Shown here piece by piece: positions 1 to 21,383 of a DNA stretch of 64,000 bases. The notes under the pieces were generated by a model that worked only from the letters and a program-made list of their open reading frames with translations, ran no database searches and was not told where the DNA came from. Numbering within the stretch: the first letter of the stretch is position 1; the number at the start of each line of letters is the position of its first letter. The position numbers were made by a program, and so were the translations under genes. Origin of the DNA: Archangium gephyra (lineage in GTDB: Bacteria > Myxococcota > Myxococcia > Myxococcales > Myxococcaceae); assembly GCF_001027285.1 (NCBI RefSeq), contig NZ_CP011509.1:5030501-5094500 (forward strand), given 5' to 3'.

Positions 1-889
1 ACAGGTCCTGCTGTCCGCTGTAGCGCGAGAGCAGCACCTGGAAGGCAGCCAGCAGGGTCATGAAAGGCGAGACTGCTTCCTCCTGGCTGAGCTGGTGCAG
101 GGCTCGAACCGTCTCCGCCGGCACGTGGAAGCGGTGGAAGTCGCCCCGGTGCCGCTGCTCCGCGGGACGAGGCCGATCCGTGGGCAGCTCCAGCCGCGTC
201 GGAGCGCCCGCGAGCTGCTGCTTCCAATAAGAGAGCTCTTCCTCCAGGCGCGCTCCCTCCATCCACTGCGCCTGCCAGCGGGAGAAGTCGGCGTACTGGA
301 GGGGCAGGGGCGGCAGGTGGGCCTGCTCGCCTCGGCGCGCGGCATTGTAGAAGGTGCCCAGCTCGAGGAAGAGCACCCCCATCGACCAGCCGTCGGAGAT
401 GATGTGGTGCATGTTGAGCAGGAGGACGTGCTCCTCCTCTGCCATCTGCACCAGCGAGCCGCGCATCAGCGGCCCCTTCATCAGATCGAAGGGACGCCGC
501 GCCTCCTGGTCCAGCAGCTCGCGGAGCCGTGGCTCGCGCTCGGCGGGCGCCAGCACCCGCAGATCCTCCCGCTCCAGCCGCGGTGTCCAGTCGGCGAGGA
601 CCTCCTGCATGGGCTCGCGCTCCACGAGGATGAAGCGGGAGCGCAGCGACTCATGCCGCTGGACGATGCGCTGCAGGGCCTGCTCCAGCGCGGGTGCGTC
701 GAGCGGGCCGCTCAGACGCACGAAGGTGGGCATGTTGTAGAGGGGCTGCCCTGGCGCGAGCTGCTCGAGGAACCACAGGCGCCGCTGCGCGAAGGAAAGC
801 GGCGCCGGCGCGGTGCCCTCCGCGCGAGGACTGCTCCAGGTATTGTCGAGGAGGGGGCCGCGGGGGGACAGGCTGGAGGAATCGCTCAT
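1..889 (-). CDS. NRPS, second gene of the assembly line (partial, N-terminal condensation domain)
   Basis: Only the first 296 codons are in the window; the gene continues past base 1. It starts with ATG at 889, one base after the TAA of the upstream NRPS (891-893), so the two are almost certainly co-translated. After a Ser/Pro-rich stretch of about 30 residues comes a condensation domain: core C1 SFAQRRLWFLEQL, C2 RHESLRSRF, the active-site motif MHHIISDGWS (intact HHxxxDG) and YADFSRWQ. The domain would receive the peptidyl chain from the third module of the upstream protein. There is no N-terminal docking helix that I can recognise. Number of further modules and the release domain are not visible. 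Family assignment is secure; the product is unknown. Confidence 0.95.
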   Translation of the reverse strand, partial: MSDSSSLSPRGPLLDNTWSSPRAEGTAPAPLSFAQRRLWFLEQLAPGQPLYNMPTFVRLSGPLDAPALEQALQRIVQRHESLRSRFILVEREPMQEVLADWTPRLEREDLRVLAPAEREPRLRELLDQEARRPFDLMKGPLMRGSLVQMAEEEHVLLLNMHHIISDGWSMGVLFLELGTFYNAARRGEQAHLPPLPLQYADFSRWQAQWMEGARLEEELSYWKQQLAGAPTRLELPTDRPRPAEQRHRGDFHRFHVPAETVRALHQLSQEEAVSPFMTLLAAFQVLLSRYSGQQDL

Positions 890-890
890 T

Positions 891-11762
<10,872 letters not shown>

Positions 11763-11895
11763 GTGGTTCTTCCCTTGTTGTATGGGATTGGAGAAGGGTA
11801 CAGCGCTGGGCCGCGGCAGGGGCTTGAATCCGATGCCGGTTTCCCAGGAGGTGGTCGATGCCCCCTCTCGGTGGATTGTACGTACTCGCGGGCTG
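11763..11895. promoter_or_regulatory. Divergent promoter region between NRPS and MFS exporter
   Basis: About 130 bases separate the chosen starts of the minus-strand NRPS and the plus-strand exporter, so promoters for both should lie here. It contains a plus-strand AGGAGG (11846-11851) followed by a 14-codon reading frame (11858-11902) whose TAA overlaps the proposed GTG start of the exporter. I see no convincing -35/-10 pair. Confidence 0.4.
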
Positions 11896-13224
11896 GTGGT
11901 AAACGGGTGCTGCACCTCCGCACCTTGTCTGGAGCCTCCCATCCTCGCCACCCTGAAACATCGTGACTTCGCGCTGCTGTGGGGGAGTCAGGTCATCTCC
12001 GGCCTCGGGGACTGGCTGCGGAACATGGCGCTGCTCTACTGGGTGTTCTCCATCACCGGTGGGGAGTCACCCGTGGCCACGGCGGCCATCGCGGTCATCA
12101 CCATGGCGCCAGCGCTGTTGCTGGGGCTGACGGCGGGCACGCTGGCCGATCGCTGGGAGCGCCGCCGGGTCCTCATCTCCTGTGATGCCATCCGGGGAGG
12201 GCTCAGCCTGCTGATGTTGCTTGCTGTGGCGACGAGCAATCTGCCGCTGGCGTATGGGGTGGCCTTCTGCTCCAGCGTGGTGGAGCAGCTCTATGATCCT
12301 GCCCGCGCGGCGCTGATTCGCGCGGTGGTGCCTCGGGAAGAGCTGATGGCCGCCAGCTCGCTGAGGCAGACCACGACGAGCGCCATCGCCATGCTGGGGA
12401 TGGCGGTGGGGACGAGCATCTATTTCCTGTTGGGGCCGTGGTGGAGCTTCGTGCTGGACTCGGCGAGCTTCTTCGCGTCGATGCTGTGCGGCCTGGCGTT
12501 GAAGACCCGGAGCGTGGGGACCAGCTCGAGCGCCCTGTCCTCGGTGTGGCGTGGGGCGAAGGAGGGGCTGAGCCATGTGCGCGGCAGCCCCTTCGTGCGC
12601 AGCCTGCTGGTGCTGGGAGGCATGGCCATGCTGGCCTCGGGCCTGCTCGAGGTCGTGCAAATCTATCTCGTCACCCAGCAGCTGGGGCTGCCGGAGGATC
12701 GCCTGGCGTGGCTGGGCACGGCACTGGGCGTATCGATGTTCGCGGGCTTCGCGCTGGTGGGCGTCTTCCACCAGCGGTTCGAGCCGCGGTGGTTGCCGGG
12801 GCTGGGCATCGGCGTGGCCGGCGTGGGAGTGGGAGTCATGGCCGTGGCCCCCTCGCTGTGGGTGGCCATCGCCGGCACGGTGCTGGTGGGGTTGGGCAAC
12901 GTGCTGCTCAGCGTGGGGTTGGGGCCCCTGGTGCAGACCTACGTCGAGAGGGATTTCCTGGGGCGGGTGATGGGCATCTTCCGCTCGGTGAACACGGGCT
13001 GTATGTTGCTGGGGGCCGGTGTCGCGGGCTCTCTGATCGCCATCGTGGACACCCGGCTGGTCATCGGCTCCTCCGGCGTGCTGTTGGTGGTGGCGGCGAT
13101 CGTGACCGGAAGCCGGCTGGCGCGCGAGGTCGTCGCGCTGGAGGGCGCGAAGGAGGACTCGCAGCCAGCGCCCGTCCTGGCGGCCGCCGCCGCATCCTCA
13201 TCGCAGGGCAATGCGAGCCCCTGA
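11896..13224 (+). CDS. MFS transporter, probable exporter of the NRPS product
   Basis: Integral membrane protein of about 442 residues, major facilitator superfamily (EntS/MefA-like drug or siderophore exporters). It begins with the typical LKHRDFALLWGSQVISGLGDW segment ahead of TM1. The loop between TM2 and TM3 has the family motif as GTLADRWERRRVL, and roughly 12 hydrophobic segments follow. The C-terminus is a short Ala/Pro/Ser-rich tail. The start is uncertain: GTG 11896 is chosen, with in-frame ATGs at 11833 and 11752 as alternatives that would reach into the NRPS start. It is divergent from the NRPS and convergent with the ABC ATPase at 13247. Export or self-resistance for the peptide is inferred from position. 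Confidence 0.88.
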   Translation: MVNGCCTSAPCLEPPILATLKHRDFALLWGSQVISGLGDWLRNMALLYWVFSITGGESPVATAAIAVITMAPALLLGLTAGTLADRWERRRVLISCDAIRGGLSLLMLLAVATSNLPLAYGVAFCSSVVEQLYDPARAALIRAVVPREELMAASSLRQTTTSAIAMLGMAVGTSIYFLLGPWWSFVLDSASFFASMLCGLALKTRSVGTSSSALSSVWRGAKEGLSHVRGSPFVRSLLVLGGMAMLASGLLEVVQIYLVTQQLGLPEDRLAWLGTALGVSMFAGFALVGVFHQRFEPRWLPGLGIGVAGVGVGVMAVAPSLWVAIAGTVLVGLGNVLLSVGLGPLVQTYVERDFLGRVMGIFRSVNTGCMLLGAGVAGSLIAIVDTRLVIGSSGVLLVVAAIVTGSRLAREVVALEGAKEDSQPAPVLAAAAASSSQGNASP

Positions 13225-13246: not shown

Positions 13247-14011
13247 TCACACCGGCTTGGGTGAGGGCGGAGGCGGCGCCTGACGCAGGTGCTCGTCCTG
13301 GACGACGCGCCCGTCGAACAGGCTCACCTTGCGGGTGCCGCGCTGGGCCTGCGCCGGATCATGCGTCACCATGATCAACGTCGCCCCTCCCTTGTGCAGC
13401 TCGGAGAGCAGCTCCATCACCGACTCGCCATTCTTCGAGTCCAGGTTGCCGGTGGGCTCGTCCGCCAGGAGGATGAGGGGCTCGCCCGCCACCGCGCGCG
13501 CCACCGCCACGCGCTGCTGTTGCCCTCCAGAGAGCTGCCCCGGCAGGTGCTGCAGCCGGTGGCTCAACCCCACGCGCTCCAGCGCCTTCTCCACCCGCGC
13601 CTTGCGCTCCGCGGCCGGCATGCCGCGGTAGGTGAGCGGCAGCTCCACGTTCTCGTAGACGGTCAGGTCGCCAATCAGGTTGAAGCTCTGGAAGATGAAG
13701 CCGATATGGCGGTTGCGGATCTGCGCCTGCTCCTCGGCGGACAGCTCCAGCACGGACTGGCCGTTGAGCAGGTAGGTGCCTTTGTTGGCCGAGTCCAACA
13801 ACCCCAGCACCGCCAGCAGGGTCGTCTTTCCGGAGCCGGAGGGGCCGACAATGGACACCCACTCGCCGGCCCGCACCACGAGGTTCACGTCCGAGATGGC
13901 GTGCGTCTCCACCTCCGTGGTCTCGAAGACCCGGCTGAGGCCCTCCAGTTGGATGAGGGTGCGCTGGGGCACGCTCTCCGTGCTGCTGCTTGCCGCCGCT
14001 GTCGTGTTCAT
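13247..14011 (-). CDS. ABC transporter ATP-binding protein (MacB/LolD type)
   Basis: Nucleotide-binding subunit of about 254 residues in the lipoprotein/macrolide-export class. Visible motifs: Walker A GPSGSGKTT, Q-loop FIFQSFNLIGDLTVYENVELP, signature [14 protein letters not shown], Walker B LILLADEPTGNLD and the switch His in VTHDPAQ. The NLDSKNGE stretch and the Q-loop context are characteristic of LolD/MacB ATPases. The start is ambiguous: ATG 14011 is used, while a GTG at 14074 would overlap the permease stop by four bases (GTGA). It is the last gene of a minus-strand operon and surely pairs with the large permease just upstream. Confidence 0.9.
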   Translation of the reverse strand: MNTTAAASSSTESVPQRTLIQLEGLSRVFETTEVETHAISDVNLVVRAGEWVSIVGPSGSGKTTLLAVLGLLDSANKGTYLLNGQSVLELSAEEQAQIRNRHIGFIFQSFNLIGDLTVYENVELPLTYRGMPAAERKARVEKALERVGLSHRLQHLPGQLSGGQQQRVAVARAVAGEPLILLADEPTGNLDSKNGESVMELLSELHKGGATLIMVTHDPAQAQRGTRKVSLFDGRVVQDEHLRQAPPPPSPKPV

Positions 14012-14070
14012 CGCAGTCTGATCCGATCCACCGCGTCCCACGCGGTCATGTCCGAGTGCAGCAGTTCCAT

Positions 14071-16506
14071 TCACTCGCTGCGCATGGCGATGCTCGGGCG
14101 CACGCGCGACGCGCGGCGGGCGGGCACCCAGGTGGCGAGCAGGGTGATGCCTCCCAGCAGCGCCGAGACCGCGCCAAAGGTGAGCGCATCCCGGGCGTTG
14201 ATCCCGTACAGCAAGCTGTCCATGAAGCGCGACAAGGCGAGCGCTCCGGTCAGCCCGATGGCCACGCCCATACCGGCCAGCAAGTACCCTTGCATCATCA
14301 TCATCTTCACCACCTCGCCCGGCCGCGCACCCAGCGCCATGCGGATGCCAATCTCCCGCGTGCGCTGCGAGACGACGTACGAGATGACGCCGTAGAGGCC
14401 CGCGGTGGCGAGGACCAGGGCGATGAGCGAGAAGGTGCCCAGCAGCACGAGATTCATCCGGCGCCCCGCCATGGAGCGCGTGATGAGCTCCTCCATGGCG
14501 AGCACCTCGTCGAGCGGCTGCGTCGAGTCGACGCTCCGCACCGCCTCACGCAGCACGGAGGCCCCCGCCGTCGGGCTCCCCGCCATCTTCACCACCAGGG
14601 AGACGCCCTGGGTGAGCAGGGGAAGGGCGAGGGGCTGGTTGTACGGCAGATCGATCTCGGGGAGCGGCTTCTGATCCAGTCCCGCCTGGCGCACATCCCC
14701 CACCACACCGATGATGGTGGCGGGCTGCTCGAAGATGAGCAGACGTTGGCCCACCGCGCTGCCCTGCGGGAAGTGCCGCTGGGCCAGCGTCTGGTTGATG
14801 ATGACGGCGGGTTCGCCCGTGGCATCCTGCTCGGTGAAGTCGCGCCCGGAGATCAAGGGAATGCCCAGCGCCTTGTAGTAGCCCGGGCTGATGACCCGGT
14901 GCTCGGCCATCAGCTCCTTGCCGGCCTCGGGGAGGGGCCCCCCCTCAACGGAGTAGTTGGAGGAGACGGAGCCCTGCTGGATGGGCAGTAGCAAGGACAG
15001 GCCGGCGGACACCACGCCAGGCCGCGAGCGGACGTGCTCGAGGATGGGTTGGAAGAGGCGCTGGGAGATCTGCTCGGGCGGGTACTTGCCGCCGGGCACC
15101 GCCAGGCGGGCGGTGAGCACTCCGCGCGAGTCGAAGCCGGGCTCCACCTTGAGCAGCACGAGGAAGCCGCGCAGCAGCAGCCCGGCCCCCACCAGCAGGA
15201 CGAGGCAGAGGGCCAGCTCCGCCACCACGAGTCCGTTGCGGAAGCGGTGGTGCGCGCGCGAGGGCGAGGCCTTGGTTCCTTCGACCAGGGTCGCGCGCAG
15301 GTTGGTCCGCGTGGACTGCAGTGCCGGGACGAGTCCGAAGAGCACCGCGCTGCCAGCGGCCACCAGCAGGAGGAACGCGAAGACGCGGCCCTGGATCGCG
15401 ATGTCGCCGGCGAGCGGGAGCGAGCGCTGGACCAGGCCCTTCATGGCGCTCAGCCCCCAGGAGGCCAGCAGCGCGCCGAGCACCGAGCCCGCGAGCGCCA
15501 GCACGAGGCTCTCCACCAGCAGCTGCCGGATGATGCGGGCCCGGTTGGCGCCGAGGGCCAGCCGGATGGCGAACTCCTGGCGGCGCGAGGAGGACTGGGC
15601 GAGCAACAGGTTGGCCACGTTGGCGCAGGCGATGAGCAGCACGAGCAGCACGGTGGCCTGGAGGATGAGCAGCGCGGGCCGCGCGCGCCCCACCACCGTC
15701 TCCGTCAGCGGTACGGCCAGGGCGCTGCGTCCGGACTGGTCCGCGGGATAGGCCTCCTCGAGACGGCGGGCGACCTCGCGCAGCTCGGTGTTGGCGGACT
15801 GGAGCGTCCCTCCCGGCTTCAGCCGGCCGATGACACTCAGGAAGCAAGAGCCCCGGCCCTCCACGCGCTTGCCGATGGGGAGGAAGGGCACGTACAGGTC
15901 CACCGGGGCTCCGGCTCCCATGGGGAACTGGATCGAGCCGGGCAGGACGCCGATGATCGTGTGCGGTTGGCCATCCAGCGTCAGCGTCTTGCCGAGGGCG
16001 TCCGGGCTGGAGGCGAAGAGGCGCTTCCACGCGCCCTCGCTGAGGATCACCACGGGGGCGGCGCCGGGCACGTCTTCCCCAGGGGCGAAGCCTCGGCCGA
16101 GCCGAGGGGCCACGCCCAGCACCTGGAAGAGGTTGGCGGTGGCCTCCACGGTGCGCAGCCGCTCCGGCTCCTGGGCCCCGGTGAGGATCCGGCTCCGCAG
16201 GACATAGGCGCTCAGGCCCTCGGTGCCGCGCACCTGCTGCGTCCAGTCCTGGTAGTTCAGCCAGGACACGGCCTCCCGGGCGTCGGGATCACGCTGGGGC
16301 ACCGTTTCATAGAGTCGGACGAGTCGCTCCGGGGTTGCGTACGGCAGCGGGCGCAGGAGCACCACGTCCACCACGCTGAAAATGGCCGCGTTGGCGCCAA
16401 TCCCCAGGGCCAGGCAGAGCACCGCCACCGTGGTGAAACCGGGGCTCTTGCGCAGCTTGCGTACCGCGAACCGCACATCCCGATAAAAGTCATCTACCCA
16501 ACTCAT
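14071..16506 (-). CDS. ABC transporter permease, duplicated MacB/FtsX type (ADOP-like)
   Basis: Inner-membrane permease of 811 residues. The N-terminus, [20 protein letters not shown], is the hallmark of the duplicated orphan permease (ADOP) family. A MacB-type periplasmic domain follows ([12 protein letters not shown] to [15 protein letters not shown]), then an FtsX block of about three helices, a second periplasmic domain and a second FtsX block ending in [12 protein letters not shown]. The start ATG 16506 is chosen because the homologous region begins at once; 16551 is an upstream alternative in frame. Most ADOP permeases have no ATPase neighbour, but here one follows directly. The substrate may be the NRPS product or a lipoprotein; that is inference from position. 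Confidence 0.88.
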
Positions 16507-16608
16507 CCACGCGAAACTATAGAACGCGTGACGAGGGGTCAATCCGCGCACCCAGGCGCACCCTCTGGACGTACATGCGCGACGAGGGGCCTTCCCTGCC
16601 TGCTTGCT

Positions 16609-17145
16609 TCAGAAGGTGGTGCCCGCCTCCAGCAGGGTGAGGTGCCAGGCGATGCCACGGCCCGGCCAGTCCGAGCCCACGCCGACGCCGAGCTCCAACA
16701 GCGACAGCTGCGTGCCGGAGTGGGTGAAGCGCAGGGGGGCGAGCTGCAACCCCACGGTGAGGGCGGGGCCCTCCACGGGCGTGGAGCGGGTGGGGGTCAG
16801 GAAGCGCATGCCCTGGCCCGCCATCCCCGAGAGCATCACCAGTGCCGCCGGAGTCCACGTCCCGCTGCGCTGGAGGCCCGCTCCCGCGCGCACCTCCACC
16901 ACCTTGCCGAGCGCCATCAGGTAGCTCGCATCCGCCTGGAGGATGAACCGGTCGTCCAGCGTGTCCCGCACGCCGAGCCCACCGCCGACGCCGCCCAGGG
17001 TGCGGGCCTCGGAGAGGTACAGGCTCATGCCCGAGTGGACATAGGCGGTGAGGCGATGGACGGGGGGCTCCTGGGCGCCAGCCGCCGGCCCGAGCAGCAG
17101 TCCGGGCAGCAGCGCGGCCCTCCACCCCGAGCGAGGCGTTCTCAT
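16609..17145 (-). CDS. Exported protein of unknown function, probable small beta-barrel
   Basis: 178 residues, with a signal peptide (basic start, then LLPGLLLGPAAGAQEP with likely cleavage after AGA). The mature part alternates short amphipathic strands rich in Gly, aromatic and Leu residues and ends in Phe (EAGTTF), as many outer-membrane barrels do. The ATG overlaps the TGA of the M28 peptidase gene by four bases (ATGA), so translation is coupled. I do not recognise a family. It resembles the first gene of the operon (18140-18700) in size, signal peptide and strand pattern, and the two may have related roles in the envelope. Confidence 0.7.
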   Translation of the reverse strand: MRTPRSGWRAALLPGLLLGPAAGAQEPPVHRLTAYVHSGMSLYLSEARTLGGVGGGLGVRDTLDDRFILQADASYLMALGKVVEVRAGAGLQRSGTWTPAALVMLSGMAGQGMRFLTPTRSTPVEGPALTVGLQLAPLRFTHSGTQLSLLELGVGVGSDWPGRGIAWHLTLLEAGTTF

Positions 17146-18143
17146 TGGGGTCCCCCTGCCCAGGCGGCCAGGCCCACGGCGGAGATCTGCACGGCCCGGC
17201 GGAAGGACTCGGGGGCGAGCGTGTCGATGACGTCCGTTGCCTCGTGGTAGTGGGGGTTGCGGAAGTCGGCCGTGTCGGTGAGGAAGAGCGCCTTGTGCCC
17301 TGCGTACCAGAAGGCCGCGTGGTCGCTGCGCATCAGGCTCTCGCTGACGGACACGGTGGAGGTGCCATCTCCCGGGGCGATGATGGACACCAGCTTCATG
17401 AGGCCCAGCGCGTCGTTGAGCTGGTGGAGCTCCGTGGCCAGGCCGAGCGAGTGGTCGTTGCCCATGATGGCGAGGAAGTCACCGGTGTCGGGCGCGGGCA
17501 GGCCGGGCAGGGATTTCTGCGAGCCGGGTCTCGTGTCGTAGTAGCCGATGCAGTCGAAGATGATGACGCCCGCCAGCTTCTCCTGGCCGAGCATGTCCAC
17601 GTAGTGGCCGCTTCCGAGCATGCCGGGCTCCTCGAGATCGAAGCCCACGAAGCGCAGGGTGCGCTCGAAGCGGTACTGGGAGAGGACGCGAGCCAGCTCC
17701 AGCACTCCCGCCACGCCCGTCGAGTTGTCGTCCGCGCCCATGAAGTGCGCATCGAAGTGGGCACCGACCAGGACGAGCTCCTCGGGCCAGGTGGTGCCCG
17801 GAAGATCCGCGATCAGGTTGGTGAAGCCGAGCGCTCCGTGCTGGCCCTCCTGGGTGCGCACCTGGAGTCCCACCGCCTCGAGCTGGGACTTCATCAGGTC
17901 GCGCGCCCGATCCCTCGTCATGAAACAGGCGGGGGCGTACTGCTCGCGCTGTACCTGCGTGCAGCTCAGGGGCGTGTCCTCCTGGTGGCTCCGGGTCAGC
18001 GCCCGGACGTGGCCCATCAGCCGCTCGGTCTCCACCTGCCCGGCGAGCGTGGAGAGCCGGGCGAGCTGTTCCTCCGAGAACCTCGAGGTGGGGGCACACG
18101 CGCTGGCCAGCAGCAGGCCCGCGGCGGCGAGTGTCTTCCTCAT
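17142..18143 (-). CDS. M28-family zinc peptidase, lipoprotein
   Basis: Predicted metallo-aminopeptidase of 333 residues anchored as a lipoprotein (lipobox LASAC, Cys16). M28 zinc ligands are visible: His129 and the following Asp in GAHFDAHFMGADDNSTG (128-143), the catalytic/ligand Glu pair in FDLEEPGMLGSG (168-179), an Asp in FDCIGYYD and a His in the C-terminal HYHEATD. Both flanking genes overlap it by four bases (ATGA), so the three form a coupled unit with the ABC transporter downstream. An envelope peptidase beside an NRPS and an exporter could trim or activate a leader-bearing peptide or inactivate the product for self-protection; this role is inference. Confidence 0.87.
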   Translation of the reverse strand: MRKTLAAAGLLLASACAPTSRFSEEQLARLSTLAGQVETERLMGHVRALTRSHQEDTPLSCTQVQREQYAPACFMTRDRARDLMKSQLEAVGLQVRTQEGQHGALGFTNLIADLPGTTWPEELVLVGAHFDAHFMGADDNSTGVAGVLELARVLSQYRFERTLRFVGFDLEEPGMLGSGHYVDMLGQEKLAGVIIFDCIGYYDTRPGSQKSLPGLPAPDTGDFLAIMGNDHSLGLATELHQLNDALGLMKLVSIIAPGDGTSTVSVSESLMRSDHAAFWYAGHKALFLTDTADFRNPHYHEATDVIDTLAPESFRRAVQISAVGLAAWAGGPQ

Positions 18144-18700
18144 AGCCAGCCTCCGAGGCTCAGCAGTCCGACCTGGACGCGGACGCTGGCGTCTCGCGGG
18201 CCCAGGCCGGTGCCGAGGTTCAGCTGGAGCGCGCTCCATTGGACGCGGCCCAGCTGGAAGCGCATGGGGCTGAGCGTGAAGGCGCCGTAGGCCGGGCCGA
18301 GCGTCGCGTCCTCGTACCCCTCGAGCCGGTTGTCGGGATACACGAGGCTGTAGAAGCGCTGGTTGAGGCCCGTCAGCCCCAGCTCGAATCCAGCGGCGGG
18401 CCGCCAGACGCCCAGCTTCGCGCCGAGCTGCGCCTGGAGGAAGGCCTCCAGCGGCAGGTGTCCCGGGGCCGCGGGCCAGCCCACCCGCAGACCGCCACCG
18501 AACTGCACGGCGCTCCAGGGGCCCTCCCCGGCCGCGGTCCGCAGGCCCTTGAGCTCCACCAGCAGGATGTTCGGCGAGGTGCGGAACGTGCCCAGTTGGA
18601 GCAGGGTGGCCACTCCCGCCGACAGCTCGTTGCGGGGAGCGGCGGGCGCGGCGGTGGCCAGCAGCAGGGCCGCCACCAACAACGGGTTTCGAGAGCTCAT
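18140..18700 (-). CDS. Exported protein of unknown function, probable outer-membrane barrel
   Basis: 186 residues, first gene of the five-gene minus-strand operon. The signal peptide is clear (MSSRNPLLVAALLLATAAPA, cleavage near APA). The mature part has many alternating strands (LRVGWPAAPGHLPLEAFLQAQ, RFQLGRVQWSALQLNLGTGL) and looks like a small barrel, but no family was recognised. An in-frame GTG at 18724 is an alternative start. The TGA overlaps the ATG of the M28 peptidase (ATGA). Together with the similar protein at 16609-17145 it brackets the peptidase gene. Confidence 0.7.
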   Translation of the reverse strand: MSSRNPLLVAALLLATAAPAAPRNELSAGVATLLQLGTFRTSPNILLVELKGLRTAAGEGPWSAVQFGGGLRVGWPAAPGHLPLEAFLQAQLGAKLGVWRPAAGFELGLTGLNQRFYSLVYPDNRLEGYEDATLGPAYGAFTLSPMRFQLGRVQWSALQLNLGTGLGPRDASVRVQVGLLSLGGWL

Positions 18701-18949
18701 GCGGAGGGTGGGAGATGAGATCACATCGCGTGGGGCACGCCAAGGTACGGGCCCTCCAGGTCCTCCCGCGCGAGTCCCACCTTGGATGACATCGACGCAT
18801 CCCCCATATGACGTATCCAGCGTCTACTGTTCTTGATCGGATTCCCTTTTGTTCCTGGATGTGAAAAAGTACAGCCCGGTTACTCCCGCAGTGCGTTTGT
18901 GCCATGGGGTTGCGCCCAATCCCGGCGGCCTTGAGGAAGAGAGCTGCAC
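18701..18949. promoter_or_regulatory. Divergent intergenic region (export operon / hydroxymandelate synthase)
   Basis: The 249 bases between the two divergent genes contain a patch of lower GC near 18825-18890 (for example TTCTTGATCGGATTCC and GTGAAAAAGTACAG) where promoters are likely. No operator repeat was recognised. The plus-strand gene has a good Shine-Dalgarno (GAGGAAGAG) just before its GTG. Confidence 0.4.
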
Positions 18950-20038
18950 GTGAACTTCGCTGGCATCGATCATCTCGAGCTGTATGTGAGCAGGCTGGAG
19001 GAGGCGGCGGAGGTGTTCTGCTCCGGTTTCGGTTTCCGGGTGACCGGACGGGCCGGGCCGGAGACGGGGCAACAGGGCCGGAGCAGCCTCCTGCTCAAGC
19101 TGGGCCGCATCCGTCTGGTGCTCACCCAGCCGCTGGTGGCCACGGATGAGGCCGCGGACTACGTCGCGGTGCACGGGGACGGAATCAAGGACGTGGCCTT
19201 CCGCACGCAGGACGCGGCGGCCGCCTTCCACGACGCGGTGCGGCGGGGCGCGACGCCGGTGAACGAGCCTCGGGTGTACGAGGGGCCTCACGGACGTCTG
19301 GTGCGGGCGACGGTGGCCTCCCCGGTGGGCGACGTGGTGCACTCCTTCATCGAGCGCGATGCGCCCGAGGGGGATTTCTGGCCGGGCCGTTTCCAGCCGG
19401 TGGTGGCTGCCGCCTCGGAGCGCGATCTCCTGGTGTCGGTGGATCACCTGGCCCTGTGCCTGATCCCGGGCACGCTCCAGGAGACGGTGGACGCCTACAG
19501 GCGGCTGTTCGGCCTGGAGCAGAGCCACGAGGAGAACGTGGAGACGCGGTACGGGGGGATGAACTCCAAGGTGGTGCAGGAGGTCTCCGGTGGCGGGGTG
19601 TGCTTCGCGTTGATGGAGCCGATGACCGGCAAGCGGCCGGGGCAGATCGACCATTTCCTGAGCAACCACCGCGGGGCGGGTGTGCAGCACATCGCCTTCC
19701 TCACGGAGGACATCCTCGAGTCCGTCCGCGTGCTGCGCGAGCGGCAGATGCCCCTGCTGGACAGCCCCTCTGGCTACTACGAGGCGCTCCCGGCGCGAGT
19801 CGGTGAGCTGGCCGAGGACGTGGAGCAGCTGCGCGCGGGCAATGTGCTGGTGGATCGCGAGGGCGACGGCTACCTGCTGCAGGTCTTCACCCGCTCGGTC
19901 CATGACCGGCGCACGCTCTTCTTCGAGATCATCCAGCGCAAGGCGGCGCGGGGGTTCGGCGCGGCCAACATCCGTGCGCTCTACCAGTCCGTGGAGCAGG
20001 AGATGATGCGCAAGGAGCGGCTGGCGAACGCCGGGTAG
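18950..20038 (+). CDS. hmaS: 4-Hydroxymandelate synthase-like dioxygenase (HPPD superfamily)
   Basis: Non-heme Fe(II) dioxygenase of 362 residues with two vicinal-oxygen-chelate halves. Expected iron ligands are His166 (SVDHLALCL), His247 (GAGVQHIAF) and Glu326 (LFFEIIQ). HmaS and 4-hydroxyphenylpyruvate dioxygenase (HPPD) use the same substrate; HmaS makes 4-hydroxymandelate, the first step to 4-hydroxyphenylglycine. Features favouring HmaS, from memory of the families: the C-terminal helix reads GAANIRALYQ (HmaS-type N-I) rather than GKGNFKALF of HPPD, the stretch LRAGNVLVDRE, and the short N-terminus. GTG start at 18950 follows GAGGAAGAG. Convergent, 22 bases away, is an HpgT-like aminotransferase, which supports the pathway. 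An HPPD for tyrosine breakdown is the alternative. Confidence 0.82.
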   Translation: MNFAGIDHLELYVSRLEEAAEVFCSGFGFRVTGRAGPETGQQGRSSLLLKLGRIRLVLTQPLVATDEAADYVAVHGDGIKDVAFRTQDAAAAFHDAVRRGATPVNEPRVYEGPHGRLVRATVASPVGDVVHSFIERDAPEGDFWPGRFQPVVAAASERDLLVSVDHLALCLIPGTLQETVDAYRRLFGLEQSHEENVETRYGGMNSKVVQEVSGGGVCFALMEPMTGKRPGQIDHFLSNHRGAGVQHIAFLTEDILESVRVLRERQMPLLDSPSGYYEALPARVGELAEDVEQLRAGNVLVDREGDGYLLQVFTRSVHDRRTLFFEIIQRKAARGFGAANIRALYQSVEQEMMRKERLANAG

Positions 20039-20060
20039 CGTCCGCCGTCCGCCGTACTGG

Positions 20061-21383
20061 TCAACCCGCCTGGAGGGCGCGCGCGCCGCGCTGCTCCATC
20101 GCGGACTTGATCAGCCGGGCCAGGCGGGAGATGCCCTCTTCGATCCGCTCCGGCGTGAGGTAGCTGCAGGAGAGCCGGAGCTCGTGTTCGCCTCCGGTGC
20201 CCAGGTAGAAGTAGCGCATCGGTGTCCAGATGACCTGGTGGTGCCGAGCGGACTGCTCGAGCAGGGCCTCATCCACCTCGATGGGCAGCTTCATCACGAG
20301 GAAGTAGCCCCCGTCCGGGACGTTCCACGTCACGTCGCGGGACCAGGCCTCGCTCCTGGGGAAGTGGCGCTCCAGGGCCTGGAGCGTCGCGTCCATGTTC
20401 TCCTTGTAGAAGCGGATCGCCTCGTGGTTCGCCTCGAGGAGGCTGCAGTCGTTCATCACCAACATGCCGCCGATGATGGCCTGGCAGATGGATGACGTGT
20501 TCACGGTCAGCAGGCTCTTGATCTTCGAGAACTCCTCCGCCAGCAGGTGCTGCTCGCCCGCCGGTCCGAGGACGCGCTGGTCCGCCACCGCGTAGCCCAC
20601 GCGCAGGCTCGGGAAGGCGGACTTGGAGAACGAGCCCAGGTAGATGACCTGTCCCTTGTCATCCATCGACTTGAGGGTGGGCTTGCGCGGGCCCTCCCGG
20701 AAGAAGAACCCATAGGGGTTGTCCTCGAGGATGAGCATGTCGGCGCGCGCGGCGAGCTCCAGCAGGCGCTTGCGCGCGGGCTCCGGGAGGCTCCGCCCGG
20801 ACGGGTTGGCGAAGTCCGCGACGAGGTAGAGCGCCCGGGGCTGCTTGCCTGCCGCCTTGAGCGCTTCTAGCGTCCGCTCGAGCTCATTCAGATCCAGGCC
20901 ATCCTCCCGCTCGGTCACCGGAACGACCTCGATGTCCAGGAGCTTGGCCGCGCCGGTGATGCCGATGTAGCAGGGCATGCCCACCAGCAAGACATCGGTG
21001 GGCTTGGAGAACAGCGCGCGCAGGGAGATGAACATCCCCTCCTGGCAGCCAACCGTGACGACGATGGACTCGGGAGCCGCCTTGATTCCCTCGTCCTTCT
21101 CCAGCATCCGGGAGATCAGCCCGTGGATGTGTCCGTTGGTCCGGCCGTATTGGAACAGGTTGGTCCGGATCTGCGCCTCGGTGAGCCCCCGTTCCTGGCT
21201 GAGGTGACGGATGTACGCGTCGAGGTACGTCGTGAGCTGCTGGGTGTCATAGAACTTCTCGTGCGGCCTGCCGGGCGCGAAGGAGATGGCCTCCGGGAAG
21301 CGGAGCGCGATCTCGTTCAAGAAGTTCATGACGTCCAGGATCGGATCCGTCAGGGAAGGATGCAGGGCGTCTTGGAGCAGCAT
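20061..21383 (-). CDS. hpgT: PLP-dependent aminotransferase, HpgT-like (4-hydroxyphenylglycine aminotransferase)
   Basis: Fold-type I aminotransferase of 440 residues. The PLP lysine is Lys254 in LGSFSKSAFPSLRVGY; other PLP-site motifs are DFANPSGRSL (190-199) and LEDNPYGFFF (219-228). The N-terminus LHPSLTDPILDVMNFLNE, followed by AISFAPGRP and FQYGRTNG, closely follows what I recall of HpgT from vancomycin and CDA clusters, which moves the amino group of tyrosine to 4-hydroxyphenylglyoxylate. It lies tail-to-tail with the hydroxymandelate synthase gene. The third enzyme, hydroxymandelate oxidase, is not in the window. A general aromatic aminotransferase is the alternative. Confidence 0.82.
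   Translation of the reverse strand: MLLQDALHPSLTDPILDVMNFLNEIALRFPEAISFAPGRPHEKFYDTQQLTTYLDAYIRHLSQERGLTEAQIRTNLFQYGRTNGHIHGLISRMLEKDEGIKAAPESIVVTVGCQEGMFISLRALFSKPTDVLLVGMPCYIGITGAAKLLDIEVVPVTEREDGLDLNELERTLEALKAAGKQPRALYLVADFANPSGRSLPEPARKRLLELAARADMLILEDNPYGFFFREGPRKPTLKSMDDKGQVIYLGSFSKSAFPSLRVGYAVADQRVLGPAGEQHLLAEEFSKIKSLLTVNTSSICQAIIGGMLVMNDCSLLEANHEAIRFYKENMDATLQALERHFPRSEAWSRDVTWNVPDGGYFLVMKLPIEVDEALLEQSARHHQVIWTPMRYFYLGTGGEHELRLSCSYLTPERIEEGISRLARLIKSAMEQRGARALQAG

Follow-up and report, generated by a model that had tools for sequence, protein, structure and literature searches.

The window considered here is a stretch of 64,000 nucleotides of the myxobacterium Archangium gephyra (positions 5030501-5094500; the genome is a single contig with 12,489,432 bases). 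It holds a gene for a dioxygenase of the 4-hydroxyphenylpyruvate dioxygenase (HPPD) family (18950-20038) and a gene for an aminotransferase (20061-21383), and a first-pass annotation of this DNA had proposed that the two serve to make the amino acid 4-hydroxyphenylglycine (Hpg), the dioxygenase acting as a hydroxymandelate synthase (HmaS) and the aminotransferase resembling HpgT. Both open reading frames exist as described, tail to tail with 22 bp between them. A nonribosomal peptide synthetase (NRPS) frame, here NRPS1, begins at 11951 on the reverse strand, 7.0 kb from the dioxygenase start, in agreement with the distance of about 7 kb given before. Important antibiotics of actinobacteria characteristically contain Hpg.

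It is very likely that the pair represents two thirds of an Hpg supply pathway which, with an oxidase encoded elsewhere in the genome (HmO2, 7119012-7120106), feeds NRPS modules with the adenylation-domain (A-domain) code DALHLGC(L/T)FK. In the proposed route HmaS would convert 4-hydroxyphenylpyruvate to 4-hydroxymandelate, HmO2, which depends on flavin mononucleotide (FMN), would oxidise this to 4-hydroxyphenylglyoxylate, and the aminotransferase would form L-Hpg, with tyrosine as the probable amino donor, regenerating 4-hydroxyphenylpyruvate. A cycle with this regeneration is described for HpgT in the available text of PMC8773403. Hpg would then be loaded by module 3 of NRPS1 and by four modules of two 8-module NRPSs. 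Family membership, residues, clades and co-occurrence are directly observed in the sequences; each enzymatic step, the preference of the code for Hpg and the nature of the products are inferred. The earlier finding stands and is larger than stated, since the genome appears to hold a complete, dispersed Hpg gene set that is patchy among myxobacteria and tied to an A-domain code.

The dioxygenase and the aminotransferase

The dioxygenase has the HPPD fold family's 2-His-1-Glu iron triad intact (H166, H247, E326). It scores above the cut-off of the HPPD model TIGR01263 (343.5 vs 277 bits), as do all four HPPD-family members of this genome, and the model therefore cannot tell HPPD from HmaS. Among solved chains, 2r5v (255.9 bits), 7yvv (246.0) and 3zgj (243.0) rank ahead of 1t47 (223.4). 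The structure listing labels 7yvv and 3zgj as HPPD and 2r5v as PCZA361.1; we take all three to be HmaS. The HmaS identity of the Amycolatopsis orientalis structure is backed by the accessible part of PMC3720870.

The residues N340-I341, named in the first-pass annotation as HmaS-type, are correct and lie within GFGAANIRALYQSVE. In a 97-row alignment the helix of the window dioxygenase carries N340-I341, L, Y345 and V348, as in HmaS-type rows, which read N-(I/V)..L-(Y/F).. with A in place of Y/F in 3zgj; within this group V stands for I341 in G051, G003 and G007b, and F for Y345 in several rows. Where HPPD-type rows extend to the helix they show N-F..L-F..(I/L). Two rows depart from this, both outside the HmaS-type group, namely L088 from Microcoleus (N-I..L-F..V) and this genome's own paralogue L006 (N-V..L-F..F). 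Mapped through 3zgj numbering, I341 and Y345 are the Ile/Tyr pair that is Phe/Phe in HPPD, and in Hms of Streptomyces coelicolor the residues Ile355 and Tyr359 line a tunnel for substrate (PMC3720870, available portion).

Phylogeny gives the same grouping. The protein set comprised 77 loci (80 minus L049-L051, duplicates of G051 and G044 rows), and the dioxygenase trees were built from 57 chosen of the 97 rows (33 HmaS-type, 24 others). The 33 rows of the HmaS-type branch, which include the window dioxygenase, 2r5v, 7yvv, 3zgj and the Streptomyces cassette members, stand apart from HPPD with support of 100/100, and the branch is kept, with an SH-aLRT value of 100, after the diagnostic columns are removed. 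The gene is accordingly classed as a predicted HmaS-type dioxygenase. It is extremely improbable that the enzyme is a normal HPPD whose homogentisate goes into tyrosine breakdown or pigment: the score above the TIGR01263 equivalog cut-off would fit, as would the public annotation of the Streptomyces plasmid cassette members as hppD, but tree position and helix residues speak against it, as does the co-occurrence of HmaS with an oxidase and an aminotransferase in all 11 HmaS-bearing genomes of the family (see below). Moreover, two other HPPD-family members with N-F helices have homogentisate dioxygenase (7.85 Mb) and fumarylacetoacetase (11.1 Mb) genes as neighbours, so the genome covers tyrosine breakdown at other loci. 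The public name hppD on HmaS-like plasmid genes of Streptomyces conceals pathways of this kind.

The fourth family member, the paralogue L006 at 9.13 Mb, was considered as a second HmaS and rejected, having Val for Ile, Phe for Tyr and a long branch outside the HmaS-type group. It lies (L018:9821-10948) directly 3' of an acylhomoserine-lactone synthase gene and is followed by a flavin adenine dinucleotide (FAD) monooxygenase gene; among myxobacteria, an acylhomoserine-lactone synthase gene is reported for A. gephyra and Vitiosangium sp. in the available text of PMC7862692. HmaS-type genes are also found in Rhodanobacteraceae (L072, Rhodanobacter sp. T12-5; L073, Oleiagrimonas citrea), and the second copy of HmaS in G007 groups with these two. 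NRPS matches lie within 10 kb of them, but in those 10 kb there is neither a hydroxymandelate oxidase (HmO) match nor a match to either aminotransferase type.

The aminotransferase gives only aminotransferase models in a Pfam scan (class I/II, with no MocR DNA-binding domain) and only sub-threshold MocR/MppQ matches in an NCBIfam scan, and the lysine expected to bind pyridoxal phosphate is present as K254 (read by motif). Its closest named relatives outside myxobacteria (56-58% identical) belong to Streptomyces cassettes of the order HmaS-HmO-PhyH-aminotransferase-EamA. It is 49% identical to the aminotransferase of an HmaS-bearing replicon of Nonomuraea gerenzanensis, which we take, from the 68-kb spacing to the HmaS match, to belong to the A40926 (dbv) cluster, the plasmid record being unannotated there. 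Among remoter relatives (44-48%), that of S. globosus belongs to an operon annotated as dpgABC, that of S. cellulosae stands beside a type III polyketide synthase and enoyl-CoA hydratases, and those of S. xanthii and S. sp. NBC_01294 are in what their gene sets suggest are phenylglycine (Phg) operons. The clade is split from a second aminotransferase type and from the genome's own MocR-like paralogues with 100/100 support, which bears out the likeness to HpgT; the gene is a member, by sequence, of the HpgT-type (HpgT/DpgT) arylglycine aminotransferase family. Members from Hpg, 3,5-dihydroxyphenylglycine (Dpg) and Phg systems are intermixed within the clade, in a tree whose rows include no biochemically characterised HpgT. 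Since the tree does not separate them, Hpg is assigned through the HmaS partner. A mixed Hpg/Dpg clade is what one would expect if a single transaminase serves both Hpg and Dpg, as in the accessible part of PMC8773403.

In a plasmid collection, 34 records carry the window-type aminotransferase (E 1e-45). Nine records have an HmaS-like match (E 1e-60 with 2r5v as query), and each of these is among the 34. On a Streptomyces finlayi plasmid (L235, 2566-9275) an HmaS-like gene and the aminotransferase are accompanied by a racemase, NRPS parts and an FAD-linked oxidase of the C-terminal domain type. The annotation of the 17-kb stretch shows no FMN oxidase, and the oxidation may be solved there in a third way.

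The oxidase and co-occurrence across the family

The first-pass annotation had stated that the oxidase is not in the window, and no FMN_dh match lies there. Genome-wide there are five such matches, two full-length (7.12 and 0.38 Mb) and three partial (4.66, 6.86 and 7.60 Mb), and the one at 7.12 Mb, HmO2 (L001; 472.7 bits), co-occurs with HmaS and is the candidate for the missing hydroxymandelate oxidase. It lies 2.07 Mb from the pair and has the catalytic Tyr, Arg, His and Arg (by eye, against glycolate oxidase and a residue list in the available text of PMC6677016). It is 74% identical to an oxidase of Hyalangium versicolor whose match starts 87 bp past the HmaS match, and an aminotransferase 81% identical to that of the window lies on the other side of that HmaS. 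Its role as oxidase is argued from this adjacency and from co-occurrence. Two other oxidases were tried and set aside. The FMN oxidase at 0.38 Mb (L002) occurs throughout the genus, and the HmaS-less G028, G037, G012 and G014 have it as well. A DprE1-like FAD oxidase (L016:5412-6896), which lies just downstream of NRPS2 on the same strand, has DprE1 as its best model at 308 bits, below the cut-off of 500, and its similarity to glycolate-oxidase GlcD is weak (50 bits).

Co-occurrence was assessed in 58 genomes of the family, which were sampled from a larger group and share ancestry. HmaS was called at E 1e-50, canonical HmO at an identity of at least 65% to the oxidase of L041, HmO2 at at least 73% to L001, the HpgT clade at at least 64% and the second aminotransferase type at at least 72%. 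HmaS is present in 11 genomes, six of which have canonical HmO and the other five HmO2; seven have the HpgT clade and the other four the second aminotransferase type (canonical HmO and the second type among the matches listed). This second type is 72-75% identical to the G031 member and 29-30% to that of the window, and in G003 it is a contig-edge fragment. Among the matches listed, the two oxidase sets are disjoint, the two aminotransferase sets are disjoint, and each union equals the HmaS set, while none of the 47 HmaS-less genomes has either oxidase or either aminotransferase clade at these identity limits. Weaker oxidase and aminotransferase matches (<=54%) occur in HmaS-bearing and HmaS-less genomes alike. 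Four genera (g1, g11, g23 and g26) hold genomes with and without the set, matched in each. As they are drawn among the matches listed, absences of canonical HmO, of the second aminotransferase and of A domains are less sure; those of HmaS, HpgT and HmO2 are surer. The complementarity of the oxidase and aminotransferase clades is the strongest evidence for the pathway, and it is invisible from the window alone.

This pattern also bears on a quite improbable alternative, in which 4-hydroxymandelate or 4-hydroxyphenylglyoxylate is itself the end product that is used, for example as a hydroxy-acid unit, with the aminotransferase serving just to provide 4-hydroxyphenylpyruvate. Four HmaS loci (L053, L054, L055 and L057) have neither an oxidase nor either aminotransferase type beside the gene within 10-kb flanks, and no window-type aminotransferase is found at E 1e-60 in the genomes to which L054 and L055 belong, which would fit such a scheme. 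The L054 genome, however, has the second aminotransferase type beside another HmaS (L056), each of the 11 HmaS family genomes has one of the oxidase clades and one of the aminotransferase clades, and the aminotransferase family sits in arylglycine operons.

The A-domain code and candidate Hpg-using synthetases

Codes were read by alignment to a GrsA segment, with A-domain matches at E 1e-60, for 30 loci of nine HmaS-bearing and 12 HmaS-less genomes. DALHLGC(L/T)FK occurs in nine of the 11 HmaS genomes (G000, G003, G007, G011, G031, G044, G049, G051 and G054). Among the matches listed, it is absent from the best match of 12 of the 47 HmaS-less genomes (two matches for G039), and the other 35 have no A-domain match at E 1e-60. 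The distribution (9/11 vs 0/47, A domains among the matches listed) gives a Fisher p of 5e-9 with kinship ignored. In this genome the code occurs once in NRPS1 and four times in the two 8-module NRPSs, which are 0.43-0.50 Mb from the pair. These are consecutive, of 12,217 and 12,222 aa (C1:5476760-5550290, L206-L210; module counts by motif), each has a thioesterase-like motif near its end, and together they hold four DALHLGCLFK modules. The DALHLGCTFK domain is predicted to activate Hpg.

Adjacency of an NRPS to the pair is real but says less than it seems to. The pair of A. violaceum Cb vi76 (G044) retains the synteny on its right-hand side, yet the 5.8 kb that remain before the contig ends show no NRPS match. 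In G049 an NRPS1 homologue (60% over 3635 aa), followed by another NRPS and with the major facilitator superfamily (MFS) gene conserved (C1:3795342-3815748; L282, L283), reads DAFFLGVTFK at module 3, which is Ile/Val-like and not Hpg-like. An Hpg-like module may therefore have been swapped into an older scaffold. Hpg might be made for the NRPSs at 5.48-5.55 Mb, with NRPS1 a neighbour by chance; this is a possibility to be taken seriously, though an unlikely one. The G044 pair without an adjacent NRPS match agrees with it, as does contig 321 of that genome, where a large NRPS with a similar code order has two DALHLGCLFK modules. On the other hand, module 3 of NRPS1 has the same code class where the G049 homologue has DAFFLGVTFK, and A. 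lansinium MIWBW (G051) has two HmaS copies, each with code-bearing NRPSs next to it. The main user of Hpg may be the pair of 8-module NRPSs at 5.477-5.550 Mb, which have four Hpg-like modules between them.

Several points weigh against the assignment to Hpg. The N-I helix alone is not diagnostic, as L088 has it just outside the HmaS-type group, and 25 of the 34 aminotransferase plasmid records lack HmaS, among them Dpg and phenylglycine-type operons. HmO2 forms a clade distinct from canonical cassette-linked HmO (45-48% identical); its gene is unlinked here and surrounded by kinase, AAA and DUF genes, and L001 itself is not among the matches listed for canonical HmO (35/60 scored in this genome). 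In G049, only ~1 kb separates HmO2 from an NRPS match that lacks the code, so there it may belong to that cluster. Two genomes with the full gene set (G029 and G052) have no A-domain match at E 1e-60 among the matches listed, and A domains near HmaS lack the code in G049, G011, G007 (5.84 Mb), G031, G054 and Hyalangium (one domain); in the first five the code is present in other clusters of the same genome. The classical Hpg code is DIFHLGLLCK, from which DALHLGCTFK differs at five of nine read positions (four for the L form): it shares D235, H278, L299, G301 and an assumed K517, and not I236, F239, L322, L330 or C331. It equals the Val-type DALWLGGTFK with W278H and G322C. The code could therefore accept another substrate.

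It is also very improbable that the gene set is decaying and has lost its function. The genes are dispersed, the oxidase lying 2 Mb from the pair, and in the comparison with A. violaceum no gene exceeds HmaS in dN/dS (0.43, against 0.21 for the aminotransferase and 0.26 and 0.31 for two flanking genes). These values are still well under 1, that of HmO2 against A. lansinium is 0.20, the three frames are intact and so are those of the code-bearing NRPSs, up to 12,222 aa.

Beyond this genome, we think it probable, as one joint reading, that myxobacteria hold a dispersed, mix-and-match Hpg pathway with its own code, made of one HmaS group, two interchangeable oxidase clades and two interchangeable aminotransferase types, often at separate loci, which feeds several NRPS clusters at once, and that these make a family of Hpg-rich peptides not yet described, some of them octapeptides in which as many as three residues are Hpg. 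Should this hold, NRPS modules of Archangium, Corallococcus, Myxococcus and relatives would become readable through the code, specific clusters would be indicated for isolation, and new HmaS, oxidase and aminotransferase enzymes would be available for making Hpg. One supply pathway would be shared by unlinked clusters, and cluster-by-cluster annotation would miss it.

Known systems and neighbouring genes

The chemistry is already known from actinobacteria and Herpetosiphon. The actinobacterial pathway (HmaS-HmO-HpgT with prephenate dehydrogenase) serves vancomycin-type glycopeptides, calcium-dependent antibiotic (CDA) and nocardicins (PMC8773403, available portion). The genes described here share with it the three enzyme families, the HmaS-type helix residues and the same aminotransferase family, whereas the oxidase gene lies apart from the pair and its product falls in another FMN clade (identity to canonical HmO 45-48%), other myxobacteria have the second type of aminotransferase in its place, and the A code departs from the classical one. 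Hpg outside actinobacteria is not new, as the pathway is reported in Herpetosiphon aurantiacus (Chloroflexota) in the accessible part of PMC3368417. There too, as described, Hpg supply genes lie beside polyketide synthase and NRPS genes in a gliding, predatory non-actinobacterium, although of another phylum. The Herpetosiphonaceae row of the alignment (L065) is of the HPPD type. The paper cited for Herpetosiphon reportedly concerns 4-hydroxyphenylglycine biosynthesis with gene duplication and catalytic divergence. With HPPD the dioxygenase shares fold family, iron triad and substrate class, and it differs in its helix (N-I/Y/V vs N-F/F/I) and its separate branch. Among open-licence full texts we found no report of Hpg or its biosynthesis in myxobacteria and none of the code DALHLGC(L/T)FK; the available text of the PARAS paper (PMC13126170) mentions Hpg and Myxococcota separately.

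The window aminotransferase is 56-57% identical to those of the five-gene cassettes of S. noursei (L061, 9986-15414) and an S. angustmyceticus plasmid (L231, 4788-10258). The same HmaS-HmO-PhyH-aminotransferase-EamA/DMT cassette, in the same order, is found in the Cystobacter fuscus-like G029 (L041, 5213-10596). No NRPS match lies within the stretches read around the three cassettes, which possibly serve to make a secreted free arylglycine derivative and may have moved between phyla. Beside the window pair no PhyH or EamA gene is seen, and there is an NRPS nearby instead.

The features of the window are collected in Table 1. The genes for the ATP-binding cassette (ABC) transporter ATPase, the ADOP permease, the 178-aa protein and the M28 peptidase lie upstream of NRPS1 on the same strand, and the HmaS gene is divergent from the M28 peptidase gene.

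Table 1. Features in and at the edge of the window (C, condensation; A, adenylation; MT, methyltransferase; T, thiolation; TE, thioesterase domain)
Feature	Position	Strand	Remarks
NRPS2, N-terminal part	2..889	-	4528 aa in all, rest left of window; four C-A-T modules and TE; codes DAFFLGVTYK, DAFFLGVTFK, DAFFLGVTYK, DIWHFGQIDK
NRPS1	891..11951	-	3686 aa; C-A-MT-T / C-A-T / C-A-T (Pfam), methyltransferase in module 1; codes of modules 1-3 DVENIGAITK, DAFFLGGTFK, DALHLGCTFK (aligned to the GrsA segment)
A domain, NRPS1 module 3	1212..2732 (approximate borders)	-	DALHLGCTFK, proposed Hpg-activating
MFS transporter	11752..13224 (start uncertain)	+	72% relative flanks NRPS1 homologue in G049
MacB/LolD-type ABC transporter ATPase	13247..14074	-	profile match
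ADOP-family MacB/FtsX permease	14071..16551	-	TIGR03434, 918 bits
178-aa protein	16609..17145	-	no Pfam match; paired with M28 peptidase
M28-family peptidase	17142..18905	-	Pfam
Predicted HmaS-type dioxygenase	18950..20038	+	362 aa, GTG start
HpgT-type arylglycine aminotransferase	20061..21383	-	440 aa, convergent with HmaS

The true start of the M28 peptidase is probably near 18701, which would add a signal peptide (read by eye). The peptidase and the 178-aa protein (16609-18905) form a candidate maturation or self-protection pair. A. lansinium has a pair of this kind, with a protein of 178-182 aa, next to each of two code-bearing NRPS clusters, one near 9.14 Mb (L037:5892-7438; identities of 74 and 77%) and one at 7.50 Mb (G051 C1:7500001-7502105; 44 and 53%).

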